Assembly: GCF_000283655.1 (NCBI RefSeq)
Contig: NC_016587.1
Coordinates: 434,001 to 498,000, forward strand
DNA length: 64,000 bases
Direction of reading: 5' to 3'
From: Azospirillum lipoferum 4B
GTDB taxonomy: Bacteria > Pseudomonadota > Alphaproteobacteria > Azospirillales > Azospirillaceae
The translations under genes were made by a program, and so were the position numbers. Below, piece after piece: positions 39,661 to 56,073 of this stretch. Below the pieces are notes generated by a model, which had not been told where the DNA came from, ran no database searches, and saw nothing but the letters and a program-made list of their open reading frames with translations. The first letter of the stretch is position 1. Each line of letters starts with the position of its first letter.

Positions 39661-40143
39661 CGGCAAACCCTCTCCCTCGATGGGAGAGGGCGATTCACAC
39701 ATCTCAGCGTCACTTAAGACGTTGAAATAAAGCAATTTTGTCGGCCGTCATTCCCGCGAAGGCGGGAATCCAGCCACATCCACCGCTGATCCGCGGAGTT
39801 TCCTGGATCCCCGCATTCGCGGGGATGACGCAAAGTTCCTTTTGTCTCAGAAGCTGAGCGATGCCTGGAATTGTGTGAATGCCCTCTCCCGCGACGGGAG
39901 AGGGTCTTTTCCCGCCACTGCCTGAAAATTGACCAGCCGGACAGACTCGGCCCGAAAATTGTGCGCCTGCCGGAACAGCGCCCGGTCCGCAGATTGTCCG
40001 TCCCGTCAGTTCCTGTCCCATCAGACAGGTTTTCCCGCAGTGAAAACAACGTTCTGCCACGCGATGCCAGCCCCATCGGCCGGGCTGGCTCGCTTCTTGC
40101 TCCAGTCCCCTGCGAGAGACGCCAACGCGAAGGGACGAACGCC
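39661..40143. repeat. Composite palindromic element: two CCCTCTCCC hairpins flanking a REP pair
   Basis: 483 bases without a gene. Outer hairpins: CCCTCTCCC/GGGAGAGGG at 39668-39690 and CCCTCTCCCG/CGGGAGAGGG at 39882-39904 (the latter followed by TCTTTT). GGGAGAGGGCgATTCACAC at the inner edge of the left hairpin is inverted relative to GTGTGAATgCCCTCTCCC at the right one, so the whole 237-bp piece is one large inverted repeat. Its core, 39746-39836, is REP copy 2, reverse-oriented to the copy at 22059-22144. The remainder, 39905-40143, precedes the ABC-transporter start and contains no recognisable gene. Left hairpin probably terminates ilvA. Confidence 0.7.
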
Positions 40144-41848: not shown

Positions 41849-42945
41849 AGCGTCCCACCATGGCGCCCTGGCCGCTCGTCATGCTGGCCGCCCCGCTGCT
41901 GCCCTTCGCCGGCCTGGACGGCACCACCCTGTTCCTGCCGCAGCTTCCCATCGCACTGGCTCTGTTCGCCGTGACCGTTGCGACGATCCTCGGCCGCCGC
42001 CTGCCCGGTTCCACACTGGGCGAGGCCCTGCTCCTGCTGGCCGGGGTTGCTGCCGCCTATGCCGCGCCGCTGGTGCTGCTGACGCAGGGCTATGGCCTCG
42101 CCCAGGCCGGCGGCTTGTGGGTCTATCTGGCCGGCGCCACCCTGCTGCTGTGGCGGGTGCTGGCGCTGCTGGCGGAGGCCAGCGGTCCGGCGCGGCTAGC
42201 CGGCCCCGCCCTGTTCGGACTGGCGCTGGTGATGCTGTGGGAGATCCTGACCCGCGGCTTTCAGGTCCCGACCATCCTGTTGCCGCCGCCCAGCGCGGTG
42301 CTGGCCGCCTTCGCCGTCCATGCCGCCGATCTGTGGGACGATTTCCGCCAGACGGTGCTGATCTCCGTCCTGCGCGGCTATCTGATCGGCTGCGGCGCCG
42401 GCTTTCTCGTGGCGATCCTGGCCGACCGGGTGCCTTTCCTGGCGCGCGGGCTGCTGCCGCTCGGCAGCCTCGCCAGCGCGGTGCCGGTGGTGGGAATCGC
42501 GCCGATCATGGTGATGTGGTTCGGCTTCGACTGGCAGTCCAAGGCCGCCGTGATCGTGGTGATGACCTTCTTCCCCATGCTGATCAACACGCTGGCCGGG
42601 CTGCAGAGCGCCGAGCGCATTCAACTGGACCTGATGCGGTCCTACGGCGCCGGTTACTGGCGCACGCTGGCGATGCTGCGGCTTCCCTGCGCCTTGCCCT
42701 TTTTGTTCAACGGACTGAAGATCAACTCAACCTTGGCCCTAATCGGAGCCATCGTCGCCGAGTTCTTCGGGACGCCGGTGGTGGGGATGGGCTTCCGCAT
42801 CTCCACCCAGGTCGCCCGGATGAATCTGGACGTGGTGTGGGCGACCATCGCCGTCGCCGCGCTCACCGGATCGCTGCTCTACGGCGCCTTGGCGCTGGCC
42901 GAGCGGCGCGTCACCGCCTGGCACCCGTCTTTGCGCAAACGCTGA
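41845..42945 (+). CDS. ABC transporter permease with N-terminal extension
   Basis: 366-residue second permease. The C-terminal ~250 residues are a standard binding-protein-dependent transport domain (WEILTRGFQVPTILLPPPSAV start, EAA-like stretch around AERIQLDLMRSYGAGYWRTL, and LRLPCALPFLFNGLKI). The first ~120 residues add about four extra hydrophobic helices (GLDGTTLFLPQLPIALALFAV, AYAAPLVLLTQ, and others) not present in the first permease. It starts with ATGA overlapping the previous stop. Possibly the additional membrane region helps heterodimer assembly with the preceding permease. Confidence 0.9.
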   Translation: MKRPTMAPWPLVMLAAPLLPFAGLDGTTLFLPQLPIALALFAVTVATILGRRLPGSTLGEALLLLAGVAAAYAAPLVLLTQGYGLAQAGGLWVYLAGATLLLWRVLALLAEASGPARLAGPALFGLALVMLWEILTRGFQVPTILLPPPSAVLAAFAVHAADLWDDFRQTVLISVLRGYLIGCGAGFLVAILADRVPFLARGLLPLGSLASAVPVVGIAPIMVMWFGFDWQSKAAVIVVMTFFPMLINTLAGLQSAERIQLDLMRSYGAGYWRTLAMLRLPCALPFLFNGLKINSTLALIGAIVAEFFGTPVVGMGFRISTQVARMNLDVVWATIAVAALTGSLLYGALALAERRVTAWHPSLRKR

Positions 42946-42996
42946 CCGCCTTCCTTCAAGCCGAACCAAACCCCAGCCAGAAGAGGATCGACCGCG

Positions 42997-44013
42997 ATGA
43001 AGACCCTTGCCTCCGCCGTCCTGCTCGCCGCCACCGCGCTCACCGGCCTCGCCGGCTGGGGTGCGCCGGCCGCCGCCGCCGATGCGCTGACCTTGCAGCT
43101 GAAATGGGTCACCCAGGCCCAGTTCGCCGGCTATTACGTCGCGGCCGCCAAGGGCTTCTACAAGGACGCCGGACTGGACGTCACCATCAAGGCCGGCGGC
43201 CCCGACATCAACCCGACCCAGATCATCGCCGCCGGCGGCGCCGACGTGATCGTCGACTGGATGCCATCGGCGCTCGCCAGCCGGGAAAAGGGCGTGCCGC
43301 TGGTCAACATCGCCCAGATGTTCCAGAAGTCGGGCATGATGCTGACCTGCCGCAAGGACGCCAACATCAAGGATCCGAAGGACTTCAAGGGCAACACGCT
43401 GGGCGTCTGGTTCTCCGGCAACGAATATCCGTTCCTGTCCTGGATGAGCAAGCTGGGCTATTCCACCTCCGGCTCCAGCCCCGACGTCAAGGTGCTGAAG
43501 CAGGGCTTCAACGTCGATCCGCTGCTGCAGAAGCAGGCGGCCTGCATCTCCACCATGACCTACAACGAATATTGGCAGCTGATCGAAGCCGGCATGAAGG
43601 CCGACGAGCTGACCGTCTTCAAATACCAGGACCAGGGCGTCGCGACGCTGGAGGACGGGCTCTACGCCACCGAGAAGTCGCTGTCCGATCCCAAGATCGT
43701 CGAAAAGCTGGCGAAATTCGTCAAGGCCTCGGCCAAGGGCTGGGAGTATGCCGCCAAGAACCAGGCGGAGGCGGTGAAGATCGTGCTGGAGAACGACACC
43801 ACCGGCGCCCAGACCGAGGAACACCAGACCACCATGATGCAGGAGGTCGCCAAGCTGATCGAGGGCGGCGCCAAGGGCACCGGCTATCTCGACCCGGCCG
43901 ACTTCAACCGCACGGTGGACATCCTGATGTCGGGCGCCTCGGCGCCGGTGATCTCCAAGAAGCCGGAGGGCGCCTTCAGCCACGCGGTGTTCGACGCGGC
44001 GGCCAAGCTGTAA
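42997..44013 (+). CDS. ABC transporter substrate-binding protein, NMT1/Thi5-like family
   Basis: 338-residue periplasmic binding protein. The signal peptide ends APAAAAD (cleavage near residue 28), followed by LQLKWVTQAQFAGYYVAAAKGFYKDAGLDV, the family signature for NMT1/THI5-like binding proteins. Typical ligands are thiamine pyrimidine precursors, riboflavin or other heteroaromatics, sometimes hydantoins or pyrimidine nucleobases; the true ligand is not identifiable here. CISTMTYNEYWQ carries a Cys reminiscent of thiamine-precursor proteins. A strong terminator at 44033-44063 ends the operon, so the downstream gntR is a separate unit. The reductive pyrimidine genes at 57-63.6 kb make a pyrimidine link plausible but not proven. 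Confidence 0.9.
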   Translation: MKTLASAVLLAATALTGLAGWGAPAAAADALTLQLKWVTQAQFAGYYVAAAKGFYKDAGLDVTIKAGGPDINPTQIIAAGGADVIVDWMPSALASREKGVPLVNIAQMFQKSGMMLTCRKDANIKDPKDFKGNTLGVWFSGNEYPFLSWMSKLGYSTSGSSPDVKVLKQGFNVDPLLQKQAACISTMTYNEYWQLIEAGMKADELTVFKYQDQGVATLEDGLYATEKSLSDPKIVEKLAKFVKASAKGWEYAAKNQAEAVKIVLENDTTGAQTEEHQTTMMQEVAKLIEGGAKGTGYLDPADFNRTVDILMSGASAPVISKKPEGAFSHAVFDAAAKL

Positions 44014-44032
44014 GGCTGCCAAAGGCCGGAAA

Positions 44033-44129: not shown

Positions 44130-44145
44130 AAGAGATATATTAGTA
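44130..44145. promoter_or_regulatory. Uronate-regulon operator upstream of gntR1
   Basis: AAGAGATATATTAGTA; the right half TATATTAGTA is identical to the kduI site. It overlaps a plausible -10 TATATT (44136-44141) with TTTCCG 18 bases upstream, and ends 22 bases before the gene start, consistent with autorepression. Confidence 0.55.
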
Positions 44146-44167
44146 AGCACGGCGTCACGCCGCTGAC

Positions 44168-44941
44168 ATGAACGGATCGAACATGGATTCCAACGCGGCC
44201 GATATGAATCTGGCGGATGCGACCGCACCGGCGCGCCGCCGCCGCCGCCGGCCCGCCAGCGCCACCGCAAGGCCGGCCCATCGCGGCGCCACCGTGTCGG
44301 GCACCATCTACCGCGATCTGCGCGACGACATCGTCTCATTGCGCCGCAAGCCGGGCGAACCGCTGATCGAAAAGGAAGTGGCCGATACCTATGGCGTCAG
44401 CCGCACGCCCGTTCGCGAGGCGATGCTGAAGCTGGCCGACGAAGGGCTGTTGGAGGTGTTCCCGCAATCCGGCACCTTCGTCGCCCGCATCCCCTTGAGC
44501 GCCCTGCCCGAAGCCATCGCCATCCGCCGCGCGCTGGAAGAGGCGACGGTGCGCTATGCCGCAGAGCAGGCGACCGGCAGCCAGGTGGCCCGCCTGCGCG
44601 CCAATCTGGAGCTGCAGCGGGAGATGCAGGAGGCCGGCAATTTCGACGGCTTCCACGATGCCGACGAGGATTTCCACGCGCTGCTGGCGGAGATATCGGG
44701 CTATCCCGGCTTCTGGACGCTGACCCAGCAGGTGAAGCGGCAGGTCGACCGCTACCGCCATCTGACGCTGCCGGTCGCCGGCCGGATGGAAAAGGCCCTT
44801 GCCGAACACAGCGCCGTGGTCGAGGCGATCGCCGCCCGCGACCCGGACCGTGCCGTCGCCGAGCTGCGCCGCCACCTGACCGACCTTCAGCTGGGCATCG
44901 CCGACGTTCAGCGGACCAATCCGCACTATTTCACCAGCTGA
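44168..44941 (+). CDS. GntR/FCD-family regulator 1 of the uronate region
   Basis: 257-residue GntR-type repressor: after a basic, low-complexity N-terminus (ARRRRRRPASAT), the winged helix has YGVSRTPVREAMLKLADEGLL and the FCD effector-binding domain contains EEATVRYAAEQATGSQVARL with HDADEDFHALLAEIS, whose His and Asp residues usually bind a metal that contacts sugar acids. FCD regulators of this kind (UxuR, ExuR, KdgR-like) respond to uronates. A second paralogue at 49874 shares most of its sequence, including PQSGTFVARIPL. An operator-like site sits 22 bases upstream of this gene and similar sites lie before mgsA, kduI and uxaC, supporting a uronate-regulon role. Confidence 0.88.
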   Translation: MNGSNMDSNAADMNLADATAPARRRRRRPASATARPAHRGATVSGTIYRDLRDDIVSLRRKPGEPLIEKEVADTYGVSRTPVREAMLKLADEGLLEVFPQSGTFVARIPLSALPEAIAIRRALEEATVRYAAEQATGSQVARLRANLELQREMQEAGNFDGFHDADEDFHALLAEISGYPGFWTLTQQVKRQVDRYRHLTLPVAGRMEKALAEHSAVVEAIAARDPDRAVAELRRHLTDLQLGIADVQRTNPHYFTS

Positions 44942-44966
44942 CTGCGGCGGGGGCGGCAGGCCGCCC

Positions 44967-45413
44967 TCACACCGTCCGCGTCTCGTAGTCGGTGAAGCTC
45001 GCCTTGCGCGGGATGTAACCGCTGGCGAAATGGGACGAGGACACGATCATGTCGGCGGTGGCCTCGTTGCAGGCCATCGGGATGTTGTACAGCGTGGCAA
45101 GGCGGGTCAGCGCCTTCACGTCCACGTCATGCGGCTGGGCGGTCATCGGATCGACGAAGAAGACCAGCAGGTCGATCCGCCCCTCCGCGATCATCGCGCC
45201 GATCTGCTGGTCGCCGCCGAGCGGGCCGCTCTTCAGCGGGGTCACGTCGAGAGTGGGGTGGGCGGCGCGCACCTTCTGGCCGGTGGTGCCGGTCGCCCAG
45301 AAGGCGTTCCCGTCCAGCGTGGCGATGTTGGCGCCGATCCAGGCGATGAGATCCGCCTTGCGGGCGTCATGGGCGACAAGGGCGATGCGCTTGCGCGGCT
45401 GCTGGGCGGTCAT
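44967..45413 (-). CDS. mgsA: Methylglyoxal synthase
   Basis: 148-residue enzyme converting dihydroxyacetone phosphate to methylglyoxal and phosphate. It has [29 protein letters not shown] (phosphate loop), the catalytic Asp region [14 protein letters not shown] and [11 protein letters not shown] plus [11 protein letters not shown] at the end, all characteristic. The start at 45413 fits the family length. Its promoter region, at 45441-45456, contains an operator-like site shared with gntR1, kduI and uxaC, so it belongs to the uronate control region by regulation. This is unusual, since most bacterial mgsA genes are not linked to uronate catabolism. No glyoxalase is near. Confidence 0.94.
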
Positions 45414-45440
45414 GGATTTGGTCTCCGGAGAATGCCGCTC

Positions 45441-45456
45441 TACTGATATATTAGAT
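45441..45456. promoter_or_regulatory. Uronate-regulon operator upstream of mgsA
   Basis: TACTGATATATTAGAT, 12 of 16 identical to the kduI site. On the minus strand it overlaps a candidate -10 (TATCAG, 45448-45443) with TTGCGC 17 bases upstream, 28 bases before the mgsA start. Confidence 0.55.
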
Positions 45457-45819
45457 TGGCCGCAGGCGCAACGCGGGGGCCGCGTCCGGCCAAGCTCCAT
45501 TGCGTTTGGGTTAGGAGCGGCGGCTTTCCGTTGCGGATGCCCTTCTCCCCTTGCGGGGCGGGATCGGCCAAACGCCAACGGCGTTTTGCCGACCCGCGGG
45601 TTGGGATGAGGGGTGCTGCGGCCGTAGGCCGTTGGAAATACTAGATTTGCGTCCCCTCACCCCAACCCCTCTCCCACAAGGGGAGAGGGGCTTTGTCTGT
45701 GAACAAAATCCGTATGCGATAGCCCTGTCCAACCGGCCGGCACGGCATTCCCGCGATTTTGTCGCGCATTCTCCGCCGGGTGAAATGTCCGACCCTCCAT
45801 CATTAGAGCTTGCCCGTTT

Positions 45820-45835
45820 TACTAGTATATTAGTA
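45820..45835. promoter_or_regulatory. Uronate-regulon operator and promoter upstream of kduI
   Basis: TACTAGTATATTAGTA is a near-perfect 16-bp palindrome (14 of 16 symmetric positions). It lies between TTGCCC (45810-45815) and TATGAT (45834-45839), i.e. in the spacer of an 18-spaced promoter, as expected for repression of the kduI operon. Confidence 0.65.
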
Positions 45836-45893
45836 TGATCGAGACAGACTCGCCGGATCGCCGGCCATCCCGAATTCGAAGGACCCGACCGAC

Positions 45894-46730
45894 ATGAAAA
45901 TCTCCGTCCGCCACGCTTCCCACCCCGATGCGGTGCGCAGCTTCGATTCCGAGACGCTGCGCGACCATTTCCTGGTCCCGACCCTGTTCGAGGCGGACGA
46001 GACCGTCTTCACCTACAGCCATGTCGACCGTTTCGTCGTCGGCGGCGCCATGCCGGTCGCCGGGCCGGTCAAGCTGGTGTCGTCCAAGGAGATCGGCTCG
46101 CCCAACTTCCTCGACCGGCGCGAGCTGGGCGTGGTCAATGTCGGCGGCCCCGGCCGCGTCACCGTCGACGGCGCGGTGTATGAACTGGCGCCGCGCGACG
46201 CCCTCTATGTCGCGATGGGCAGCAAGGACGTCACCTTCGAAAGCCTGGACCGCAGCGAGCCGGCCAAATTCTACCTGAACAGCACGCCGGCCCATGCGCG
46301 GTTCGAGACGATGAAGATCTCCATCGGGCAGGCCAAGGCCGTGCATCTGGGCGACCCGGCCCAGTCGAACGAGCGCACCATCTACCAGATGATCCACCCG
46401 GACGTGGTGCGCACGGCGCAGCTGGTGCTTGGCATGACCGTGCTGAAGCCGAACAACATGTGGAACACGATGCCGTGCCACACCCATGACCGGCGCTGCG
46501 AGGTCTATTTCTACTTCGACCTGCCGGAGGATGCCCGCGTCTTCCACCTGATGGGCGAGCCGGAGCAGACCCGCCACATCGTCGTCGCCAACGAGCAGGC
46601 CGTGATCTCCCCGCCCTGGTCGATCCATTCCGGCGTCGGCACCCGCAACTACACCTTCATCTGGGCGATGGGCGGCGACAACCAGGACTTCACCGACATG
46701 GACTTCGTTGCCATGGACCGCCTGCGCTGA
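45894..46730 (+). CDS. kduI: 5-keto-4-deoxyuronate isomerase
   Basis: 278-residue cupin-type isomerase converting 4-deoxy-L-threo-5-hexosulose uronate into 2,5-diketo-3-deoxygluconate, a step in pectin, hyaluronan or alginate-oligomer degradation. It begins MKISVRHASHPDAVRSFD, contains LGVVNVGGPGRVTVDG and the metal-binding MPCHTHDRRCEVYFYFDLPE block. It is first in the kduI-kduD-kdgF group, with kduD 14 bases downstream. The upstream operator-promoter region suggests repression by the FCD regulator. The start ATG 45894 has a weak ribosome-binding site but fits the family. Confidence 0.95.
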   Translation: MKISVRHASHPDAVRSFDSETLRDHFLVPTLFEADETVFTYSHVDRFVVGGAMPVAGPVKLVSSKEIGSPNFLDRRELGVVNVGGPGRVTVDGAVYELAPRDALYVAMGSKDVTFESLDRSEPAKFYLNSTPAHARFETMKISIGQAKAVHLGDPAQSNERTIYQMIHPDVVRTAQLVLGMTVLKPNNMWNTMPCHTHDRRCEVYFYFDLPEDARVFHLMGEPEQTRHIVVANEQAVISPPWSIHSGVGTRNYTFIWAMGGDNQDFTDMDFVAMDRLR

Positions 46731-46744
46731 GGCCGGAGGCAGCC

Positions 46745-47542
46745 ATGACCGGATCCATGAGCAAGCCCTTCGATCTGTCCGGCCGGACGGCGCTGGTCAC
46801 CGGCGCCAACACCGGCATCGGCCAGGCCATCGCCGTGGCGCTGGCCGAGGCCGGCGCCGACGTGGCGGTGGCCGGCCGCACCCCGCCGGTGGAAACGCAG
46901 GAGATGGTGGAGCGCGCCGGCCGGCGCTTCGTCGCCATCTCCGCCGACTTCACCAGCATCGAACCGGTCCCCCGCATCATGGAAGAGGCGGTCGCAGGGC
47001 TGGGCCATGTCGACATCCTGGTCAACAATGCCGGCATCATCCGGCGCGCCGATTCCATCGACTTCAGCGAAGCCGACTGGGACGACGTGATGAACGTCAA
47101 CATCAAGTCGGTGTTCTTCCTCTGCCAGGCCTTCGCCCGCCATGTCTTCGCGCGCCGGGCAGCGGGTGGGAACTCGGGTGAGGACGCCAAGGGCAAGATC
47201 ATCAACATCGCCTCGATGCTGTCCTTCCAGGGCGGCATCCGGGTGCCGTCCTACACGGCCTCCAAAAGCGGCATCGCCGGCGTCACCAAGCTTCTGGCCT
47301 GCGAATGGGCGGGCAAGGGCATCAACGTGAACGCCATCGCTCCGGGCTATGTCGAGACCAACAACACCACGGCTCTGCGCGCCGACGAGACGCGCAATGC
47401 CGAGATCCTGGCGCGCATCCCGGCCGGGCGCTGGAGCGTGCCATCCGACATGGCCGGTCCGGCGGTGTTCCTGGCCTCCGACGCCTCGGACTATGTCCAC
47501 GGCATCACCCTGCCGGTCGATGGCGGCTGGCTGGCGCGCTGA
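46745..47542 (+). CDS. kduD: 2-dehydro-3-deoxy-D-gluconate 5-dehydrogenase (KduD)
   Basis: NAD-dependent SDR reducing 2,5-diketo-3-deoxygluconate to 2-keto-3-deoxygluconate. It has TALVTGANTGIGQA (cofactor loop), NNAGI, and YTASKSGIAGVTKLLACEW with catalytic Tyr/Lys. The sequence WAGKGINVNAIAPGYVETNNT is characteristic of KduD. An insertion of about ten residues (AAGGNSGEDAKG) precedes the active-site strand, longer than in enterobacterial KduD. It follows kduI by 14 bases and precedes kdgF. GGAGGCAGCC precedes the start ATG at 46745. Confidence 0.93.
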   Translation: MTGSMSKPFDLSGRTALVTGANTGIGQAIAVALAEAGADVAVAGRTPPVETQEMVERAGRRFVAISADFTSIEPVPRIMEEAVAGLGHVDILVNNAGIIRRADSIDFSEADWDDVMNVNIKSVFFLCQAFARHVFARRAAGGNSGEDAKGKIINIASMLSFQGGIRVPSYTASKSGIAGVTKLLACEWAGKGINVNAIAPGYVETNNTTALRADETRNAEILARIPAGRWSVPSDMAGPAVFLASDASDYVHGITLPVDGGWLAR

Positions 47543-47554
47543 CGGGAACCAACC

Positions 47555-47587
47555 CCCGCTGCCGCGCCCGTCCGGGGCGGCGGCGGG
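47555..47587 (+). other. GC-rich hairpin between kduD and kdgF
   Basis: CCCGCTGCCGC at 47555-47565 pairs, with one G-T, with GCGGCGGCGGG ending at 47587. No T-run follows. It may stabilise the upstream mRNA or lower kdgF expression. Confidence 0.4.
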
Positions 47588-47614
47588 ACCTCAGGGGAAG
47601 AAGGAAGAAGACCA

Positions 47615-47992
47615 ATGACCACCGACGTGTTCGTGACCGCGGACGATATCCCGTGGCAGGATCTGGGCGACGGGGTGCGGCGCAAGATCCTTGGCTACAA
47701 CGACGCCATGATGATGGTTCGGGTGGAGTTCGAGGCCGGCGCCATCGGCGCGCAGCACCGCCACCCGCATGTCCAGTGCGCCGTGGTGGAGAAGGGCTCC
47801 TTCGACGTCACCATCGACGGCCGCACCAAGCGGCTGAACACCGGCGACGGCTATATGGTGCCGTCCAACGTGCTGCATGGCGTGGTTGCCCTGGAGCCGG
47901 GCGTGCTGCTCGACATCTTCACGCCGATCCGCGAGGATTTCCTGGGCGAGCCGGTGGCCTATGCCGCCGCGGCGGACGCGCCTTCGGCCTGA
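47615..47992 (+). CDS. kdgF: Cupin protein, KdgF-like
   Basis: 125-residue single-domain cupin. It has the metal-binding motif GAQHRHPHVQCAVVEKGSFDV (two His plus Glu) and the second cupin motif around NVLHGVVALEPGVLLDIFTP, matching KdgF, which opens unsaturated uronate monomers to linear ketone forms. It follows kduD in the same direction, 72 bases on, so the three gene products form consecutive steps. Only the homology to KdgF and position support this function. No secretion signal, so cytoplasmic. Confidence 0.88.
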   Translation: MTTDVFVTADDIPWQDLGDGVRRKILGYNDAMMMVRVEFEAGAIGAQHRHPHVQCAVVEKGSFDVTIDGRTKRLNTGDGYMVPSNVLHGVVALEPGVLLDIFTPIREDFLGEPVAYAAAADAPSA

Positions 47993-48041
47993 CCGGGCTC
48001 GGCTGTCGATCCCGATGGAGGGAGACGGCGAAGGCTTGCCA

Positions 48042-48467
48042 TCAGCCTTCGGCGCCTCCATCAGCGTCGGCACGCTTCGATCCCCGTGGGCCAATCGTTC
48101 GATGGCCGCTTGAAACCTGCTGCCGTGCAATGGCCTTGAGCTTGTGGCCAACCTCGACGATGGCATCCAGGGCCGGCACCAGTTCCTGGCCGAGCGGCGT
48201 AAGGGCGTACTCCACCGAAGGCGGCGTCGTCGGCTGGATGCTGCGGGTGATGACACCGCGGTTTTCCAGTTCACGAAGCCGTTGCGACAGGACCTTGGCC
48301 GAAATCGGCGGGATGTCGAGGCGCAATTCGTTGAATCGCCGTGGACCGGCGCGCAGGTGCCAGATCACGTTCGGCGCCCAGGCTCCGGCGATGACCGCCA
48401 TGCACTCGGTCAGAGCGCAAGTCTGCGGCGGAGGCGCGCTCCGGTTCTTTCTGACTTTCAAACTCAT
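48042..48467 (-). CDS. HxlR-family transcriptional regulator
   Basis: 141-residue winged-helix regulator of the HxlR group. The core reads CALTECMAVIAGAWAPNVIWHLRAGPRRFNELRLD with the recognition helix and ISAKVLSQRLRELENRGVITRS, typical for redox- or electrophile-sensing HxlR proteins; a single Cys pair (CALTEC) near the N-terminus could be a sensor. Start at 48467 fits the family length. It is divergent from the glutathione transferase gene, and the intergenic region holds an inverted GGTTACT/AGTAACC repeat. Control of the GST-NTF2-tautomerase operon is likely. Confidence 0.88.
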   Translation of the reverse strand: MSLKVRKNRSAPPPQTCALTECMAVIAGAWAPNVIWHLRAGPRRFNELRLDIPPISAKVLSQRLRELENRGVITRSIQPTTPPSVEYALTPLGQELVPALDAIVEVGHKLKAIARQQVSSGHRTIGPRGSKRADADGGAEG

Positions 48468-48478
48468 GAGAACGATCA

Positions 48479-48512
48479 GGTTACTGCAGGGAAACCTGAA
48501 TACGAAGTAACC
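48479..48512. promoter_or_regulatory. Inverted repeat between hxlR-like and gst
   Basis: GGTTACT (48479-48485) and AGTAACC (48506-48512) are inverted copies 20 bases apart, and a third related half-site, GGTAACTT, lies at 48534-48541. The position in the divergent region suggests an operator for the HxlR protein. Confidence 0.45.
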
Positions 48513-48584
48513 GATGGAAACTTGGTTGGCAAGGGTAACTTCGCTCAATAGAGTCCGGCCATCCCCACAACCAAGGAAGTTTCC

Positions 48585-49214
48585 ATGCGGCTCTACTTCA
48601 AGCCCGGCGCCTGTTCGCTGTCGTCGCGGATAGCGCTCGTCGAGATCGGACTGGCCTATGATGCCATCCGGGTCGACACCGAAACCGGCCTGACCGAAGC
48701 CGGGGACGCCTATCGCACCGTCAATCCCAAGGGCTATGTGCCGGCTCTTGAACTGGAGGACGGCTCCGTTCTGACCGAGAACCCGGCGATCCTTCAATTC
48801 CTCGCCGATACCCATCCCCAAGCGTCTCTCGCGCCGGCCTGCGGCACCATGGAGCGTGCGCGTCTGCAGGAATGGCTCAACTTCACCTCGTCCGAGCTGC
48901 ACAAGGCATTCAGCCCCTATTTCAGCGGACATCCGCTCGGAGAGGCGGAAAAGGAGCAGGTCGAAGGCCGCCTGGCCTGGCGGGTGGGGGATGTGGAGCG
49001 CGGCCTTGCCGACGGCAGGGACTTCATCCTCGGCAACGGCTTTACCGTGGCGGATGCCTATCTGTTCGTCGTCCTGAACTGGTCGGGTTTCATCGGGTTC
49101 GATCTCGCCCGCTGGCCGCATGTGGCGGCCTATGTGGCGCGCATCGCCACCCGGCCGTCCGTTCGCGATGCCATGCGTCAGGAAGGGCTGATTGCCGACG
49201 AGGCCGCAGAATGA
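48585..49214 (+). CDS. Glutathione S-transferase family protein
   Basis: 209-residue GST, distinct from the one at 22162. N-terminal domain: MRLYFKPGACSLSSRIALVE (Cys/Ser active-site region), then NPKGYVPALELEDGSVLTENPAIL, the glutathione-binding cis-proline loop. The C-terminal domain has the NGFTVADAYLFVVLNW capping box. It is similar to bacterial beta-class GSTs. The downstream NTF2-like gene overlaps by ATGA, and the tautomerase follows, forming a small detoxification or aromatic-degradation operon under the divergent HxlR gene. Confidence 0.93.
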   Translation: MRLYFKPGACSLSSRIALVEIGLAYDAIRVDTETGLTEAGDAYRTVNPKGYVPALELEDGSVLTENPAILQFLADTHPQASLAPACGTMERARLQEWLNFTSSELHKAFSPYFSGHPLGEAEKEQVEGRLAWRVGDVERGLADGRDFILGNGFTVADAYLFVVLNWSGFIGFDLARWPHVAAYVARIATRPSVRDAMRQEGLIADEAAE

Positions 49215-49588
49215 CCCGGACCCTGAACGACATCGGCGACCTCCTCCAGGACTATTTCGACGCACTTTACTTCTGCGACGTCGACAAGCTTCAGAGTGTC
49301 TTTCACCCGAGGGCGATCTATGCGACCGCCGACGAGACGCCGCTGCTCTATCGCACCATGGAAGACTATGTGCCGGTCGTCGCCGCCCGCCAGTCGCCGG
49401 CCTCGCGCAACGAGGCTCGGCGCGACCATATCGACGCCATCGATCTGGCCGGCGAAAACACCGCGGTCGCCCGCGTGCGCTGTTCGATAGGCCAGCGCGA
49501 TTTCGTCGATTTCCTCACCCTGGTGCGCACGGATGGCCGGTGGCGGATCATCGCCAAGGTCTTTCAGATCATCGAACGCCAGCCATAG
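49211..49588 (+). CDS. SnoaL/NTF2-like protein
   Basis: 125-residue NTF2-like alpha+beta fold protein: DIGDLLQDYFDALYFCDVDKLQSVFHPRA at the start, and DFLTLVRTDGRWRIIAKVF near the end are typical. Such proteins can be small enzymes (isomerases, dehydratases) or just binding proteins. The start ATG overlaps the GST stop by ATGA, implying coupled translation. Function is unknown; the GST-NTF2-tautomerase order suggests metabolism of an electrophilic or aromatic compound. Confidence 0.88.
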   Translation: MTRTLNDIGDLLQDYFDALYFCDVDKLQSVFHPRAIYATADETPLLYRTMEDYVPVVAARQSPASRNEARRDHIDAIDLAGENTAVARVRCSIGQRDFVDFLTLVRTDGRWRIIAKVFQIIERQP

Positions 49589-49600
49589 GGAGCGACAGAT

Positions 49601-49807
49601 ATGCCGTATGTTAACATCAAGATCACGCGCGAAGGCGCGACGCCGGAACAGAAGGCCGAGCTTATCAGGGGCGTGACCGACCTTCTGGTGGACGTGCTGG
49701 ACAAGACCCCTGCGACCACCTTCGTCGTCATCGACGAGGTCGATATGGAGGATTGGGGGGTCGGCGGTCTTCCTGTCGCGGAGTACCGGAAAACCCTCGG
49801 CACGTGA
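49601..49807 (+). CDS. 4-oxalocrotonate tautomerase family protein
   Basis: 68-residue tautomerase-superfamily protein that keeps Pro1 after Met removal (MPYVNIKITREGATPEQKAEL), the catalytic general base. The pattern fits 4-oxalocrotonate tautomerase monomers or close relatives; Arg residues at usual positions (TREG) support it. It follows the NTF2-like gene by 12 bases and ends the three-gene unit. Natural substrate is not identifiable; some homologues act on halogenated acids. Confidence 0.92.
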   Translation: MPYVNIKITREGATPEQKAELIRGVTDLLVDVLDKTPATTFVVIDEVDMEDWGVGGLPVAEYRKTLGT

Positions 49808-49873
49808 TCGTGGGCTCCCGGCGAGCCCGGGCCTCGGAGACCGCGGTAGACCGGCCCTCCCTCGAGCCGGCCC

Positions 49874-50695
49874 TTAAACCGGGTCTCCCGGCGCGGTGAA
49901 ATAGCGCGGATAGTCGCGGCGGATGTCGGCGACCGAGATCTGCAGATCGTCCAGATGCTCGTCCAGCGCCCTGATGGCGGCTGCCGGATCGTTGGCCGCG
50001 ATGGCGTCGACGATGGCGGTATGCTCGGCGATCACCTCGGCGACACGGCCGAGGACCGGCAGGGTCAGCAGGCGGTAACGGTCGATCTGCACCTTGGTCT
50101 GCTGGATCAGCGTCCAGAATCCGGGATAGCCGGCGATCTCCGCGACCAGAGCGTGGAACGCCTCGTCGGCCTGATGGAAGCCGGGGAAATCGGCGGCCTC
50201 CTGCATCTCTTTCTGCAACTCCAGATTGGCTCGCAGCGCTGCGATCTGGCTGCGCGTGGCACGCGCCGCGGCATAGCGCACCGTCGCCTCTTCCAGCGCC
50301 TTGCGGATGGCGAAGGCTTCCGGCAGGCCGTCCAGCGGGATACGCGCCACGAAGGTGCCGGATTGCGGGAAGATCTCGATTAGCCCCTCGTCGGCCAGCT
50401 TCAGCACCGCTTCGCGCACCGGCGTGCGGCTGACGCCGTAGGTTTCGGCGATCTGCTTTTCGGCGATGGCGTCGCCCGGCTTGCGCTTCAGCGAGACGAT
50501 CTCGCCCCGCAGGTCGCGGTAGATGCGCGACGCCACCGTCGCGGCACGGCGCGGCGGGCGGACCGTCGCGGCCGGCACCGCAGCACGTCGGGCGGTTGCA
50601 GGGGCCAGGCCGCCTTCATCGTCTGTCGTCGCGACCTTCTTCACCGATGACTCCATTCCGGCAGGCATGTAACGGGGCGGCAGTCTTCCGCCCAT
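49874..50695 (-). CDS. GntR/FCD-family regulator 2, divergent to uxaC
   Basis: 273-residue paralogue of the regulator at 44168: winged helix with YGVSRTPVREAVLKLADEGLI, FCD domain with EEATVRYAAARATRSQIAAL and HQADEAFHALVAEIAGYPGFW. It is divergent from the uxaC-uxaA-EamA-kdgK operon, the usual position for a dedicated regulator. GAGGA lies seven bases upstream of the start at 50695. The shared operator motif at 50858-50873 lies in the promoter of uxaC, 163 bases from this gene. The two paralogues probably recognise the same DNA sequence but may differ in inducer. Confidence 0.88.
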   Translation of the reverse strand: MGGRLPPRYMPAGMESSVKKVATTDDEGGLAPATARRAAVPAATVRPPRRAATVASRIYRDLRGEIVSLKRKPGDAIAEKQIAETYGVSRTPVREAVLKLADEGLIEIFPQSGTFVARIPLDGLPEAFAIRKALEEATVRYAAARATRSQIAALRANLELQKEMQEAADFPGFHQADEAFHALVAEIAGYPGFWTLIQQTKVQIDRYRLLTLPVLGRVAEVIAEHTAIVDAIAANDPAAAIRALDEHLDDLQISVADIRRDYPRYFTAPGDPV

Positions 50696-50847
50696 GGGAC
50701 GTTCCTCATGTCCTGCAATCTACCCGCCCCTCTTCACCAAGGTCAAACCCGTCGCCAGCATCATGCCCGGCCTTCTGCACGGATCGGGTGCGGCGACTGG
50801 GCGCAGGCCTTGCGGGCATCCACACCCCGCCACGGGAAGGATTGGGC

Positions 50848-50877
50848 TTGCAATCATATCTGATATATTAATATTAT
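50848..50877 (+). promoter_or_regulatory. Promoter and operator of uxaC
   Basis: TTGCAA at 50848-50853 and TATTAT at 50872-50877 are 18 bases apart. The operator-like ATCTGATATATTAATA occupies 50858-50873, inside the spacer, the same arrangement as in front of kduI. The start of uxaC is 90 bases downstream. Confidence 0.6.
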
Positions 50878-50967
50878 ACGACCAGCCGGTAGGGACGGTC
50901 CCCCGCACGGACCCCGCCTTTCTCCCCACCCTGCTTTTGTCACTCTCTTGCAGCGCAGAGGCTTCCG

Positions 50968-52368
50968 ATGCTTCACCCCGACCGTCTGTTCCCGAGCGAC
51001 CCGACGCAGCGCGCCATCGCGCGGCGCCTCTACGGCGAAGTCAGCGCCCTGCCGATCATCAGCCCGCACGGCCACACCGATCCGTCCTGGTTCGCGAAGG
51101 ACGAGGCGTTCCCCGACCCGGCGAGCCTGTTCGTCAAGCCCGACCATTATGCCTTCCGCATGCTCTACAGCCAGGGAATTCCGCTGGAGCAGCTGGGCGT
51201 ACCGCGCAAGGACGGCGGGGAGACCTCGTCCGACAATCGCGCCATCTGGCGCCTGCTGGCCTCCAACTGGCACCTGTTCCGCGGCACACCGACGTCGATG
51301 TGGCTGACCCACGCCTTCGAGACGGTGTTCGGCGTCACCGAGCGTCTGAGCGCCGCCAGCGCCGACCGCATCTATGACCGCATCGAAGAGTGCCTGCACA
51401 AGCCGGAATTCCGTCCGCGCGCCCTGTTCGAGCGCTTCAACCTCGAAGTGCTGGCGACCACCGAATCGCCGCTCGACACGCTGGAGCACCATAAGGCGAT
51501 CCGCGAGAGCGGCTGGAAGGGCCGGGTCATCACCGCCTTCCGTCCCGACCCGGTCGTCGATCCGGAGTTCGAGGGCTTCCGCGACAACCTCGCCGAACTG
51601 GCCCGCATCACCGGCAAGGACACCGCGACCTGGGACGGCTATCTCGCCGCCCTCGCCGACCGCCGCCTCTATTTCAAGAGCTTCGGCGCCACCTCGACCG
51701 ACCACGGCCACCCGACGGCGGCGACCGCCGATCTGGCTCCCGCCGAAGCCGCCAAGCTGTTCGACATCGTCCGCCGCGGCGGCGCGACGGCCGAGGAGGC
51801 CGAGCTGTTCCGCGCCCAGATGCTGACGGAAATGGCGCGGATGAGCCTGGAGGACGGTCTGGTCATGCAGATCCACCCCGGCTCATTCCGCAACCACAAC
51901 ACCATGCTGTTCCAGCGCTTCGGCCGCGACAAGGGCGCCGACATTCCCAGCGGGACCGAATATGTCCGGGCGCTGAAGCCGCTGCTCGACCGCTTCGGCA
52001 ACGAGCGCGACCTGACCATCATCCTGTTCACGCTGGACGAGGACAGCTATTCCCGCGAGCTGGCGCCGCTGGCCGGCCATTACCCGGCTCTGCGCGTCGG
52101 CCCGGCCTGGTGGTTCCACGACAGCCCCGAGGGCATGCGCCGTTACCGCGAGATGATCACGGAGACCGCCGGCTTCTACAACACCGTCGGCTTCAACGAC
52201 GACACCCGCGCCTTCTGCTCGATCCCGGCCCGCCACGACGTGTCGCGCCGCGTCGACTGCAGCTTCCTCGCCCGGCTGGTGGCCGAACACCGGATGGAGG
52301 AGGACGAGGCGGCGGATCTGGCGGTCGACCTCGCCTACCGCCTCGCCAAGAACGCCTACAAGCTGTGA
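50968..52368 (+). CDS. uxaC: Glucuronate/galacturonate isomerase
   Basis: 466-residue uronate isomerase interconverting glucuronate with fructuronate and galacturonate with tagaturonate. It starts MLHPDRLFPSDPTQR, has SPHGHTDPSWFAKDEAFPDP (metal His-x-His), NLEVLATTESPLDTLEHH, and GPAWWFHDSPEGMRRYRE plus ARHDVSRRVDCSFLA near the end. It heads the uxaC-uxaA-EamA-kdgK unit. No uxaB or uxuB reductase, the next step in the pathway, is present in the window. A 15-bp tandem duplication surrounds the stop codon. Confidence 0.96.
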   Translation: MLHPDRLFPSDPTQRAIARRLYGEVSALPIISPHGHTDPSWFAKDEAFPDPASLFVKPDHYAFRMLYSQGIPLEQLGVPRKDGGETSSDNRAIWRLLASNWHLFRGTPTSMWLTHAFETVFGVTERLSAASADRIYDRIEECLHKPEFRPRALFERFNLEVLATTESPLDTLEHHKAIRESGWKGRVITAFRPDPVVDPEFEGFRDNLAELARITGKDTATWDGYLAALADRRLYFKSFGATSTDHGHPTAATADLAPAEAAKLFDIVRRGGATAEEAELFRAQMLTEMARMSLEDGLVMQIHPGSFRNHNTMLFQRFGRDKGADIPSGTEYVRALKPLLDRFGNERDLTIILFTLDEDSYSRELAPLAGHYPALRVGPAWWFHDSPEGMRRYREMITETAGFYNTVGFNDDTRAFCSIPARHDVSRRVDCSFLARLVAEHRMEEDEAADLAVDLAYRLAKNAYKL

Positions 52369-52409: not shown

Positions 52410-52540
52410 CCCCTCTCCCTTGATGGGAGAGGGGTTGGGGTGAGGGTGGCGCCGGCCACTGCCGGCCGGAACCCCGCTCCCGCCCCTATCGGGCGGGCCG
52501 CACCCCTCACCCCAACCCCTCTCCCGCAAGGGGAGAGGGG
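52410..52540. repeat. Composite three-part inverted repeat between uxaC and uxaA
   Basis: 131 bases. Left hairpin CCCCTCTCCC / GGGAGAGGGG (52410-52434), right hairpin of the same sequence (52516-52540), and between them GGTTGGGGTGAGGG (52433-52446) inverted relative to CCCTCACCCCAACC (52504-52517). The central part is GC-rich and could form a third hairpin. Either hairpin could lower downstream transcription or stabilise the uxaC message. Confidence 0.7.
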
Positions 52541-52568
52541 CCTGCAAGTCTCCTCAAGGACCTCCTCC

Positions 52569-54092
52569 ATGGCATCGCTGACCATCCGCCTGCACCCCGC
52601 CGACAACGTCGTCGTCGCCGGCGCCGACCTGGAGCCCGGCACGAGCCTGCCCGGCACCGAAGTCGCGACCACCGGGCCGGTGCCGGCCGGGCACAAGGTC
52701 GCGGTGCGCGCCATCGCGCCGGGCGAGCCGGTGCGCAAGTACAATCAGGTCATCGGCTTCGCCACCGCGGCGATCCAGCCGGGCGACCATGTCCACGTCC
52801 ACAACATGGGCATGGGCAGCGATTTCGAGCGCGATTACGCCTTCGGCGCCGACGTCCACCCGGTGGACATGATCCCGGAGGCCGAGCGCGCCACCTTCCA
52901 GGGCATCCTTCGCCCGGATGGCCGCGTCGCCACCCGCAACTACATCGGCGTGCTGACCTCGGTGAACTGCTCCGCCACCGCGGCGCGGATGATCGCCGAC
53001 CATTTCCGTGGCTCCGCGCTCGCCGCCTACCCCAACATCGACGGCGTCGTCGCCCTGACCCACGGCTACGGCTGCGGCATGGCCGGCAGCGGCGAGGTGA
53101 TGGACACGCTGCGCCGGACCATCGCCGGCTACGCCCGCCACCCGAACTTCGCCGCGGTGATCCTGCTGGGCCTCGGCTGCGAGGTGAACCAGATCGACAA
53201 GCTGATGGAGGCCACCGGGCTTGAGGCCGGCGCCCGCGTCATCCCCATCGGCATCCAGGACATGGGCGGCACCGCCGCGGCGGCCCGTGAGGGCATCCGC
53301 CGGATCGAGGCTCTGCTGCCGGAGATCGACGACGTCAAGCGCCAGACCCTGCCGGCCAGCCACCTGACGCTGGCTCTGCAATGCGGCGGCTCCGACGGCT
53401 ATTCGGGCATCACCGCCAACCCGGCGCTGGGCTATGCCGTCGACATGCTGGTCCGCAACGGCGGCACCGCGGTGCTGAGCGAGACGCCGGAGGTCTATGG
53501 CGCCGAGCATCTGCTGACCCGCCGCGCCGTCCGCCGCGAGGTGGGCGAGGCGCTGGTCGAGCGCATCGGCTGGTGGGAGGAATACACCAGCCGCACCGGC
53601 GGCGAGATGAACAACAACCCGTCGCCCGGCAACAAGAAGGGCGGCCTGACCACCATCCTGGAAAAGTCGCTGGGCGCGGTCGCCAAGGGCGGCACCACCC
53701 CGATGACCGCCGTCTACCGCTATGCCGAGCCGATCACCGACAAGGGCTTCGTCTTCATGGACACGCCCGGCTACGACCCGGTGTCGGCGACGGGGCAGGT
53801 GGCGGGCGGCGCCAATGTGCTGTGCTTCACCACCGGCCGCGGCTCGGTCTTCGGCTGCAAACCGACGCCCAGCCTGAAGCTGGCGACCAACAGCACGCTG
53901 TTCCGCCGGATGCCGGACGACATGGACATCGATTGCGGCGCCATCGCCACCGGCGACGCCACCATCGAGGAGGTCGGCCGCGCGATCTTCCAGCTGGTTC
54001 TCGACACCGCCTCGGGCCGCAAGACCAAGAGCGAGGAACTCGGCGTCGGCGCCGATGAATTCGCTCCTTGGCAGATGGGAGCGGTCATGTAA
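52569..54092 (+). CDS. uxaA: Altronate dehydratase
   Basis: 507-residue enzyme that dehydrates D-altronate to 2-keto-3-deoxygluconate. N-terminal SAF domain: IRLHPADNVVVAGADLEPGTSLP; the C-terminal catalytic portion has THGYGCGMAG, LLGLGCEVNQIDKL, NPSPGNKKGGLTTILEKSLGA split by a short loop, and VLCFTTGRGSVFGCKPTPS. The ATG at 52569 agrees with family length. It is downstream of uxaC across the repeat element and 42 bases before the EamA gene. Fe2+ is the usual cofactor. UxaB, making altronate, is missing from this window. Confidence 0.95.
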   Translation: MASLTIRLHPADNVVVAGADLEPGTSLPGTEVATTGPVPAGHKVAVRAIAPGEPVRKYNQVIGFATAAIQPGDHVHVHNMGMGSDFERDYAFGADVHPVDMIPEAERATFQGILRPDGRVATRNYIGVLTSVNCSATAARMIADHFRGSALAAYPNIDGVVALTHGYGCGMAGSGEVMDTLRRTIAGYARHPNFAAVILLGLGCEVNQIDKLMEATGLEAGARVIPIGIQDMGGTAAAAREGIRRIEALLPEIDDVKRQTLPASHLTLALQCGGSDGYSGITANPALGYAVDMLVRNGGTAVLSETPEVYGAEHLLTRRAVRREVGEALVERIGWWEEYTSRTGGEMNNNPSPGNKKGGLTTILEKSLGAVAKGGTTPMTAVYRYAEPITDKGFVFMDTPGYDPVSATGQVAGGANVLCFTTGRGSVFGCKPTPSLKLATNSTLFRRMPDDMDIDCGAIATGDATIEEVGRAIFQLVLDTASGRKTKSEELGVGADEFAPWQMGAVM

Positions 54093-54134: not shown

Positions 54135-55109
54135 ATGCCAGACAACACCACCCCGCGCACCGATGCCGAAGCCGGTCCCGAACCGGTGAACGCCCCGCAG
54201 CCCCCGATCCAACCGGCAGGACCGTGCGCGAAGGGCACGGAGCCGATGCGGGCGATCCTGCTGGTGGTGCTTGGCGTGGCCTGCCTGTCCTGCTCGGACG
54301 TGACCGCGAAGTATCTCGCCCGGACCCTGCCGCCGGCCGAGATCGTCTGGATGCGCTATGTCGTCTTCTCCGCGCTTGTGATGCCGCTCGCCCTGCGCGG
54401 CGGCTCCTTGCGGGTGCTAAAGACGACGCGGCCAGGGCTGCAGATCCTGCGCGGCCTGGGCATGCTGGGCTCGGCCCTGTTCTTCATCATGGCGATGCAG
54501 CATCTGCCGCTGGCCGAGGCCGCGGCGATCAGCTTCGTCTCGCCCGTCTTCGTCACCGTGCTGTCGATCCTGCTGCTGAAGGAGACGGTCGGCATCCGCC
54601 GCTGGGCGGCGCTGCTGGTGGGGCTGGCCGGTGTCGTCATCGTCATCCGGCCGGGTGCGGACGGCTTCAACCCCGCCACGCTGCTGCCGGTCCTGACCGC
54701 CTTCAGCTGGGCGCTGGGTCTGGTGGCGACGCGCAAGATGACGGTGCGGGAAAATCCGCTGACCACCATGGTGTGGAGCGCACTCACCGGCCTGATCCTG
54801 CTGACGGCGCTGCTTCCCCTGCATGCGGTGTGGCCGACGCCGTGGGAGATGTTTCTCGGCGCCTTCATCGGGCTGATCTACACGGCCGCGCAATGGCTGC
54901 TGATCCTGGCCTACCGCCAGGGCGAGGCATCGGTGCTGGCGCCCTTCACCTATGTCCAGCTGATCTGGTCGACCGCGCTGGGTTTCCTCGTCTTCGGCGC
55001 GGTGCCCGACCATTGGACCTTCGTCGGCACCGGCGTGATCATCGCCAGCGGCCTCTACACCGCGCACCGCGAACGGATGCGGGCGAGAGAACGCCGCTTG
55101 GCGGCATGA
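54135..55109 (+). CDS. EamA/DMT family permease in the uronate operon
   Basis: 324-residue permease with ten hydrophobic helices in two EamA repeats, e.g. CLSCSDVTAKYLARTLPPAEIVWMRYV and LLPVLTAFSWALGLVATRKM. The first 30 residues are Pro-rich and polar. It lies between uxaA and kdgK on the same strand, so it is likely cotranscribed. No dedicated uronate permease (ExuT, TRAP or MFS) exists in the window, so this may transport uronate or keto-deoxygluconate. That is inference from position; family members usually export metabolites. Confidence 0.88.
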   Translation: MPDNTTPRTDAEAGPEPVNAPQPPIQPAGPCAKGTEPMRAILLVVLGVACLSCSDVTAKYLARTLPPAEIVWMRYVVFSALVMPLALRGGSLRVLKTTRPGLQILRGLGMLGSALFFIMAMQHLPLAEAAAISFVSPVFVTVLSILLLKETVGIRRWAALLVGLAGVVIVIRPGADGFNPATLLPVLTAFSWALGLVATRKMTVRENPLTTMVWSALTGLILLTALLPLHAVWPTPWEMFLGAFIGLIYTAAQWLLILAYRQGEASVLAPFTYVQLIWSTALGFLVFGAVPDHWTFVGTGVIIASGLYTAHRERMRARERRLAA

Positions 55110-55152
55110 AATAGGATTTGCCGGGGCGATCCCCGGCTTGTGGAGAAGAAAC

Positions 55153-56073
55153 ATGACCGACACGCCCAACCGCGTCGCCGCGCTCGGCGAATGCATGATC
55201 GAGATGTTCCGGCGGCCGGACGGGTCGCTGACCATGGGGTTCGGCGGCGACACGCTGAACACCGCGGTCTATCTGGCGCGTCTGGGCACGCCGGTCGACT
55301 ATGTCACCGCTCTCGGCGACGACAGCATCAGCGACGGCATGGTGGCCGCCTGGGCGGCGGAAGGTGTCGGCACCGGGCATGTCCTGCGGGTGCCGAACCG
55401 CCTGCCCGGCCTCTACCTGATCGAGACCGATGCCAGCGGCGAGCGCCGCTTCCTCTACTGGCGCGACAAGGCCCCGGCGCGCGAGCTGTTCGCCCTGCCC
55501 CAGACGCCGGAACTGTCCAAGGCGCTGGAGGGTTACGGCATCGTCTATCTGTCCGGCATCAGCATCGCCATCCTGGGCGAAGAGGGCCGCGAGCGCCTGT
55601 TCGAGCTGCTGCAGCGGGTGCGGGCGCGCGGCGGCAAGGTCGCCTTCGACACCAACTGGCGCCCGCGCCTGTGGCCGGACATCGGGACCGCCCGCACCGC
55701 CTTCGACCGCATGCTGCGGCTGACCGACATCGCGCTGCCGGGCGTCACCGACCTGCGCGACCTCTATGGCGACGCCGATGCCGACGCCGTGCTGGCCCGC
55801 GTCCGCGACGCCGGAGTCGGCGAGATCGTCCTGAAGCTGGAGCAGCCCGGCTGCGTGGTGATCGAGAATGGCGAGGCCGTCGAGGTGCCGGCCCAGAAGG
55901 TCGCCACGGTGGTCGACACCACGGCGGCCGGCGACAGCTTCAGCGCCGGCTATCTGGCATCCCGCCTGCGCGGCGAAGGCCCGGTCGACGCCGCCCGCGC
56001 CGCCCACAGGCTGGCCGCCGCCGTCATCCAGCACCGCGGCGCCATCATCCCGCGCGAGGCGATGCCGGCCTGA
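55153..56073 (+). CDS. kdgK: 2-Keto-3-deoxygluconate kinase
   Basis: PfkB/ribokinase-fold kinase of 306 residues phosphorylating 2-keto-3-deoxygluconate to KDPG, which then enters the Entner-Doudoroff pathway. Its N-terminus ALGECMIEMFRRPDGSL and FGGDTLNTAVYLARLG bind the sugar acid, and DTTAAGDSFSAGYL contains the anion hole and catalytic Asp. It ends the uxaC-uxaA-EamA-kdgK operon. An ATG 15 bases upstream is possible, but 55153 fits the family. KDPG aldolase is not in the window. Confidence 0.95.
   Translation: MTDTPNRVAALGECMIEMFRRPDGSLTMGFGGDTLNTAVYLARLGTPVDYVTALGDDSISDGMVAAWAAEGVGTGHVLRVPNRLPGLYLIETDASGERRFLYWRDKAPARELFALPQTPELSKALEGYGIVYLSGISIAILGEEGRERLFELLQRVRARGGKVAFDTNWRPRLWPDIGTARTAFDRMLRLTDIALPGVTDLRDLYGDADADAVLARVRDAGVGEIVLKLEQPGCVVIENGEAVEVPAQKVATVVDTTAAGDSFSAGYLASRLRGEGPVDAARAAHRLAAAVIQHRGAIIPREAMPA

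Follow-up and report, generated by a model that had tools for sequence, protein, structure and literature searches.

What do four short AT-rich strings in front of uronate genes have in common, and which regulator reads them? The stretch of DNA analysed here (the window) comprises 64,000 nucleotides of Azospirillum lipoferum 4B (contig NC_016587.1, positions 434,001 to 498,000). An earlier note, drawn from the letters alone, described 16-mers with a TATATTA core at 44130, 45441, 45820 and 50858, upstream of gntR1, mgsA, kduI and uxaC, and read them as the sites of a single repressor regulon. The four 16-mers are exactly as described, and a search of both strands found TATATTA nowhere else in the window. 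Judged from sequence comparison, they are very probably operators of a hexuronate-catabolism regulon, bound and repressed by FCD-type GntR regulators (GntR1, GntR2, probably both). The shared operator and the uronate regulon are well supported, but a single repressor is not established, as the window encodes two paralogs. The four sites are as follows.

44130..44145, plus strand: operator 1, AAGAGATATATTAGTA, 38 bp 5' of the gntR1 start, with a single intact half
45441..45456, minus strand: operator 2, TACTGATATATTAGAT, read on the mgsA strand as ATCTAATATATCAGTA, 43 bp 5' of mgsA
45820..45835, plus strand: operator 3, TACTAGTATATTAGTA, the strongest of the four, between the kduI -35 TTGCCC and -10 TATGAT
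50858..50873, plus strand: operator 4, ATCTGATATATTAATA, in the gntR2/uxaC divergent gap, between the uxaC -35 TTGCAA and -10 TATTAT

Taken whole, the element forms a 16-bp inverted repeat, TACTRRTATAYYAGTA, with RTATAY at its centre and conserved outer boxes TACT and AGTA; the kduI site matches it without mismatch, and the mgsA, gntR1 and uxaC sites depart from it at 2, 3 and 3 positions. The half-palindromes said to flank the core are clear at kduI, where 14 of 16 positions are self-complementary; the remaining sites, taken singly, show them weakly (8, 10 and 8 of 16). The best matches to TACTAATATATTAGTA in the window carry 1, 3, 4 and 4 mismatches. Against these four places at up to 4 mismatches, the mean over 100 Markov-shuffled windows was 0.00 (0.06 at up to 5), a test that is not independent of the sites because the consensus was drawn up after they were known. 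A matrix built from 41 site strings from relatives scores the four sites at 23.0-29.9 bits and the next separate place at 5.8, with maxima in 100 shuffled windows averaging 7.2 and reaching 19.2 at most; this comparison is partly circular because orthologs of the same promoters went into the matrix. Chance AT-rich words were rejected as an explanation of the four sites. The motif is presumably unlike the operators of Escherichia coli UxuR, ExuR and KdgR, as the earlier note stated; yet it has a precedent at a site of the regulator RSP_0489 located by chromatin immunoprecipitation sequencing (ChIP-seq).

The sites were also said to overlap or lie between -35 and -10 elements. A promoter scan finds sigma-70-like hexamers at two of the four, kduI and uxaC; at mgsA and gntR1, an overlapping -10-like string is recognized by eye only. 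Across the region, the scan returned 4 sigma-70-like sites against 1.0 expected. The mgsA site serves a minus-strand gene. The two scanned promoters are given below; gntR2 has a separate promoter-like site, at 50746-50717, which carries no operator.

45810-45839, plus strand: kduI promoter, TTGCCC-18-TATGAT, from the promoter scan, with the operator between -35 and -10
50848-50877, plus strand: uxaC promoter, TTGCAA-18-TATTAT, from the promoter scan, with the operator between -35 and -10

Conservation at orthologous promoters had been proposed as a check, and the orthologous locus was compared across 17 related genomes (18 loci with the window). A site at up to 4 mismatches is present at gntR1 in 16 of 18, at mgsA in 17, at kduI in 16 (within 130 bp) and at uxaC in all 18. 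At gntR1, the misses are a site with 5 mismatches (G005) and a match that is another paralog (G024); gntR1 contexts carry a site at up to 5 mismatches in 17 of 17 cases, window counted. At kduI, one site lies slightly farther upstream (G003) and one locus has none within 160 bp (G067). Permuted palindromes averaged 0.41, 0.54, 1.59 and 2.10 of 18 for gntR1, mgsA, kduI and uxaC, with 95th percentiles of 16 (kduI) and 17 (uxaC) of 18; the test is weak for these two promoters, where some permutations equalled the real palindrome. Column identity stands above the left/right flanks at gntR1 (0.95 vs 0.82/0.61), mgsA (0.87 vs 0.75/0.74), kduI (1.00 vs 0.86/0.82) and uxaC (0.98 vs 0.83/0.94), in an ungapped comparison that for this reason lowers flank identity. 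The distance of the site from the start codon varies from -31 to -110.

Wider samples agree. Among 30 of 43 kduI matches, 29 loci hold a site at up to 3 mismatches to TACTRATATATYAGTA anywhere in the locus, and 29 of the best 30 of 47 mgsA matches have one at up to 4 mismatches within 160 bp upstream (permutation mean 1.46 of 30; 2 of 500 permutations equally good). Seven mgsA loci qualify at up to 2 mismatches, one of them (L143) by virtue of the kduI site at -150, the site of mgsA itself having 3 mismatches there. In A. brasilense Sp7, mgsA adjoins uxaC instead of kduI and retains a site at -61/-53 (3 mismatches; L154). The surroundings of the uxaC operator (window 50838-50900) are themselves nearly invariant in the 18 genomes, with GATTGGGCTTGCAATC on the upstream side and GCCGGTAGGGACGGTCCCC on the downstream side; the latter may represent a hairpin in the leader or the site of a second regulator.

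Random scatter across genomes had been named as the other check. In 45 genomes of the genus, 110 motif sites at up to 1 mismatch were counted, compared with 3 for a reversed control; at up to 2 mismatches in 26 genomes, the counts were 244 and 79. Thus, neither check speaks against a shared operator. The number of FCD-GntR paralogs per genome (E <= 1e-60, n=45) is zero in one genome, one in five, two in one and at least three in 38, the count of 8 in G036 including apparent repeated contig ends. Site number follows paralog number (rho 0.78, p 3e-10, 45 genomes), in a correlation that ignores kinship. The sole genome without a paralog (G011) has no site at up to 1 mismatch, nor at up to 2. In B510 and in the nearest relative compared (G001), a third paralog, gntR3, also has a site to itself, about 50 bp upstream of the start.

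The genes concerned are listed here.

44168..44941, plus strand: gntR1, GntR winged helix plus FCD regulator, 257 aa; Pfam GntR and FCD
44967..45413, minus strand: mgsA, methylglyoxal synthase; NCBIfam NF003559, 192 bits, cut-off 84; the start codon was chosen, not given
45894..46730, plus strand: kduI, 5-dehydro-4-deoxy-D-glucuronate isomerase; NCBIfam NF002091, 450 bits, cut-off 250
46745..47542, plus strand: kduD, 2-dehydro-3-deoxy-D-gluconate 5-dehydrogenase; TIGR01832, 404.5 bits, cut-off 338.85
47615..47992, plus strand: cupin protein, a likely kduI operon member; Pfam Cupin_2, gene order as in B510
49874..50695, minus strand: gntR2, GntR winged helix plus FCD regulator, 273 aa; Pfam
50968..52368, plus strand: uxaC, glucuronate isomerase; NCBIfam NF002794, 604.5 bits, cut-off 387
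52440..54092, plus strand: altronate dehydratase family protein, 3' of uxaC; Pfam GD_AH_C, B510 annotation
54135..55109, plus strand: DMT (EamA) transporter; Pfam, B510 annotation
55138..56073, plus strand: PfkB-family sugar kinase, KDG-kinase-like; NF052444, 381.5 bits, just below the cut-off of 400

GntR1 and GntR2 both carry Pfam PF00392 and PF07729 and are 64% identical overall and 74% identical in the winged helix. The stretch GVSRTPVREA, which we take to be the recognition helix, is identical in the two, and in each of the 28 Azospirillum paralog pairs the winged helix-turn-helix shows greater similarity than the FCD domain. A shared operator read by different sensors fits these proteins because they have the same GVSRTPVREA and DNA-binding domains more alike than their FCD domains. 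Several FCD-GntR proteins may share the operator, because two paralogs with this stretch lie in the window and at least three paralogs occur in 38 of 45 genomes. The nearest solved chain to the GntR protein is 7u5q, of the GntR family (E 4.7e-60); a literature search for this code turned up no paper. An assignment to E. coli-type UxuR or ExuR was rejected, as NCBIfam scores are 36-37 bits for UxuR (cut-off 442) and 24-35 bits for ExuR (cut-off 396). An excerpt on the FadR subfamily gives its operator consensus as TKGT/ACMA, with GT-N2/3-AC (PMC4494728); the central GT and AC boxes stand together in the centre of none of the four window sites.

A regulon of known type is indicated by the Rhodobacter sphaeroides precedent. 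In the available portion of that study, deletion and ChIP-seq show that RSP_0489, of the GntR family, represses uxaC-kduID-uxuB 36-fold and uxuA 26-fold, and GACTAATATGCTAGTA is part of its ChIP-seq site at uxaC (PMC4344238). As far as that portion goes, the operator palindromes are nearly identical, uxaC and kduID are targets common to both systems, and the RSP_0489 gene has uxaC on one side and a carbohydrate kinase gene on the other, much as in the window. The string GACTAATATGCTAGTA differs from TACTRRTATAYYAGTA at 2 positions and recurs in Cereibacter johrii between uxaC and a GntR gene whose product is 34-36% identical to the window proteins. A GntR gene stands beside uxaC- or kduI-type genes in the window, B510, A. 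ramasamyi, Sp7 and C. johrii. The systems differ in regulator number, the window encoding two paralogs and most Azospirillum genomes at least three, and mgsA is absent from the five rows of the RSP_0489 direct-target table (PMC4344238). By analogy, the window system would work like an RSP_0489/UxuR-type regulon, DNA binding and repression being carried over from the R. sphaeroides relative.

Other systems offer looser parallels in the portions of the reports available. A GntR-family 'UxuR' has been predicted over UxaC-route glucuronate genes in Rhodobacteraceae (PMC5507952), likewise in Alphaproteobacteria but in a different order, and was compared without its motif. E. coli ExuR and UxuR also form a paralogous GntR-family pair controlling hexuronate genes (PMC9369180). 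In Corynebacterium glutamicum, two functionally redundant GntR-type regulators, also called GntR1 and GntR2, jointly control a sugar-acid pathway, in another phylum and over gluconate catabolism and glucose uptake (PMC2230225). Among the titles and abstract openings listed, no description was found of uronate regulation in Azospirillum, of several paralogous repressors with one shared operator, or of methylglyoxal synthase within a uronate regulon; among the titles listed for motif strings, none concerned this operator.

The association of regulator and site extends beyond Azospirillum. Six loci from Rhizobium, Sinorhizobium and Phyllobacterium encode a GntR protein that shares about 50% identity with GntR2. 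Its gene stands at the head of uxuA in the three Rhizobium records and of kduI-kduD in the Phyllobacterium record, these four being annotated and the two Sinorhizobium records unannotated. In all six (14-17 kb each), the best matrix match, at 20.8-25.8 bits, lies 44-135 bp before GntR. In Paracoccus yeei, the best match falls in the GntR/uxaC gap and is weaker (14.6 bits), with no site there at up to 4 mismatches. As a negative control, an A. brasilense GntR protein (52% identical) whose gene neighbours idonate genes shows no good site at its locus. A search of the class with the C. johrii protein gave matches at E <= 1e-30 in 19 of 337 genomes, mostly GntR relatives without a known role; the sites near 30 of these relatives were mixed and were not used as support. 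Upstream of some of them (L181, L183, L186, L187, L192) stands a ACTNGTATGGTAGTA-like string, perhaps a sister operator type, with outer ACT/AGT boxes and spacing like those of the window but with the core GTATGG and proteins 34-43% identical to the Cereibacter query.

Further genes carry the motif within the genus. In G001, 13 sites at up to 2 mismatches were found, one of them the kduI site; neighbours were examined for 9 of the other 12, C7:706940 being without an assigned gene. They precede gntR3, kdgT, a tagaturonate reductase gene, an MFS transporter gene, an aldose epimerase gene, a DUF4440 gene and a second MFS transporter gene that diverges from a GGDEF gene; one lies within the predicted open reading frame of a HAMP protein, and an extra site with 3 mismatches precedes a TRAP solute-binding gene. 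On Sp7 plasmid p3, an annotated start follows within 250 bp for 10 of 13 sites, though not for those at 349270, 485484 and 610393 (distances read from tables). These ten precede gntR-kduI-kduD, kdgT, epimerase-tagaturonate reductase, mgrA, uxaC, gap, a DMT transporter gene, sugar kinase-gntR-eda, pyk-pflA and a phosphate acetyltransferase-acetate kinase pair. The sites at gap, pyk-pflA, the phosphate acetyltransferase-acetate kinase pair and mgrA (L089, L090, L173) suggest a uronate-gated set of lower glycolysis and fermentation genes. In G027, the only site at up to 1 mismatch (L122:6193) is flanked by kduI and a divergent gene for a HexR-like regulator of the RpiR family.

From these comparisons, a mechanism can be proposed. 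GntR1 and GntR2 homodimers would occupy the inverted repeat, over the promoter hexamers or in the space between them, and keep RNA polymerase off kduI-kduD, uxaC with the genes that follow, mgsA and gntR1, the last amounting to autoregulation. The repressors would be expected to let go when an intermediate of uronate breakdown, for example 2-keto-3-deoxygluconate (KDG), binds to the FCD domain. Methylglyoxal synthase diverts triose phosphate, and our guess is that its inclusion would drain triose phosphate when uronates are plentiful.

Besides the limits already attached to the flank comparison, the permutation test and the paralog correlation, several observations weigh against this reading. 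The gntR1 site retains one good half. About a third of the genome matches at up to 2 mismatches may be noise. Two genomes with paralogs (G033 with 1, G028 with 3) have no site at up to 1 mismatch; at up to 2, G028 has 6 and G033 has 3, and G033 shows three sites near its paralog at 2-3 mismatches. A winged helix-turn-helix more similar than the FCD domain is common across this superfamily. The GntR proteins beside an RSP_0489-type site in two Cereibacter-group genomes, possible orthologs that stand in for RSP_0489, are 34-38% identical to GntR1 and GntR2 and fall apart from the Azospirillum and Rhizobiales rows of the tree on long branches; the C. johrii protein reads SRQPVRD where GntR1 and GntR2 read SRTPVRE.

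Of the alternatives, the one that survives best is that a single paralog (GntR2, encoded beside uxaC, for example) serves all four sites while GntR1 has drifted to another operator. A single such regulator per Cereibacter and Rhizobium locus is consistent with this, other GntR relatives standing elsewhere in those Rhizobium records, as is a GntR1 winged helix that is 74% identical to that of GntR2. However, GntR1 and the site occur together in 17 of 18 genomes (window counted), GntR1 retains GVSRTPVREA, and gntR1 and gntR3 each have their own site, as autoregulators do. This alternative is conceivable but doubtful. A smaller chance attaches to the idea that the mgsA site is an auxiliary kduI operator looping with operator 3, with mgsA outside the regulon. 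The two genes are divergent neighbours, and 113-146 bp separate the sites in the 12 kduI loci showing both (L002-L013); yet in the window they lie 379 bp apart, some 240 bp more, with both intact, and Sp7 mgsA keeps its site beside uxaC. It is hard to believe that the sites are plain AT-rich -10 elements, conserved for the sake of RNA polymerase and without an operator function: they do overlap or adjoin -10-like strings (two by promoter scan), and AT-rich 16-mers are scarce in this GC-rich window, but the conserved unit is 16 bp long at varying start-codon offsets, sites per genome follow GntR paralog number, and RSP_0489 was found on such a site by ChIP-seq, in the portion of the study available. 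The preferred reading remains repression of the four promoters by FCD-type GntR regulators, probably by both paralogs.

Some features lie around the regulon. Between kduI-kduD-cupin and gntR2, the B510 annotation places genes for a helix-turn-helix protein, GstA, an NTF2-like protein and a tautomerase. Before gntR1, at 39871-44016, lies an ABC importer (ATPase, two permeases and a binding protein; B510 annotation), and the matrix scan finds no site before it. The mgsA-kduI start-to-start distance is 481 bp in the window and 213-318 bp in 17 relatives. The extra 240 bp or so, within 45457-45815, contain an inverted repeat (45539-45557/45673-45691) and a word recurring at 52425 and 52510, and are probably a dispersed repeat element.

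These findings tie the Azospirillum uronate operator to a repressor studied in R. sphaeroides and give a testable operator and regulon for the use of pectin sugars (uronates) in a plant-associated genus. Two questions follow: what maintains at least three paralogous regulators, similar in their DNA-binding domains, in 38 of the 45 genomes, and what ties methylglyoxal synthesis to the use of uronates, mgsA being an unexpected probable target. A more far-reaching reading, offered as speculation, is that Azospirillum has duplicated its FCD-GntR repressors on one operator, with the DNA-binding halves staying alike and the sensing halves diverging, such that several uronate intermediates jointly gate a regulon extending into central metabolism: methylglyoxal synthase in much of the genus, and gap, pyk-pflA and pta-ackA on the Sp7 plasmid. 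If so, Sp7 would possess a plasmid-borne, uronate-gated branch of lower glycolysis and fermentation.

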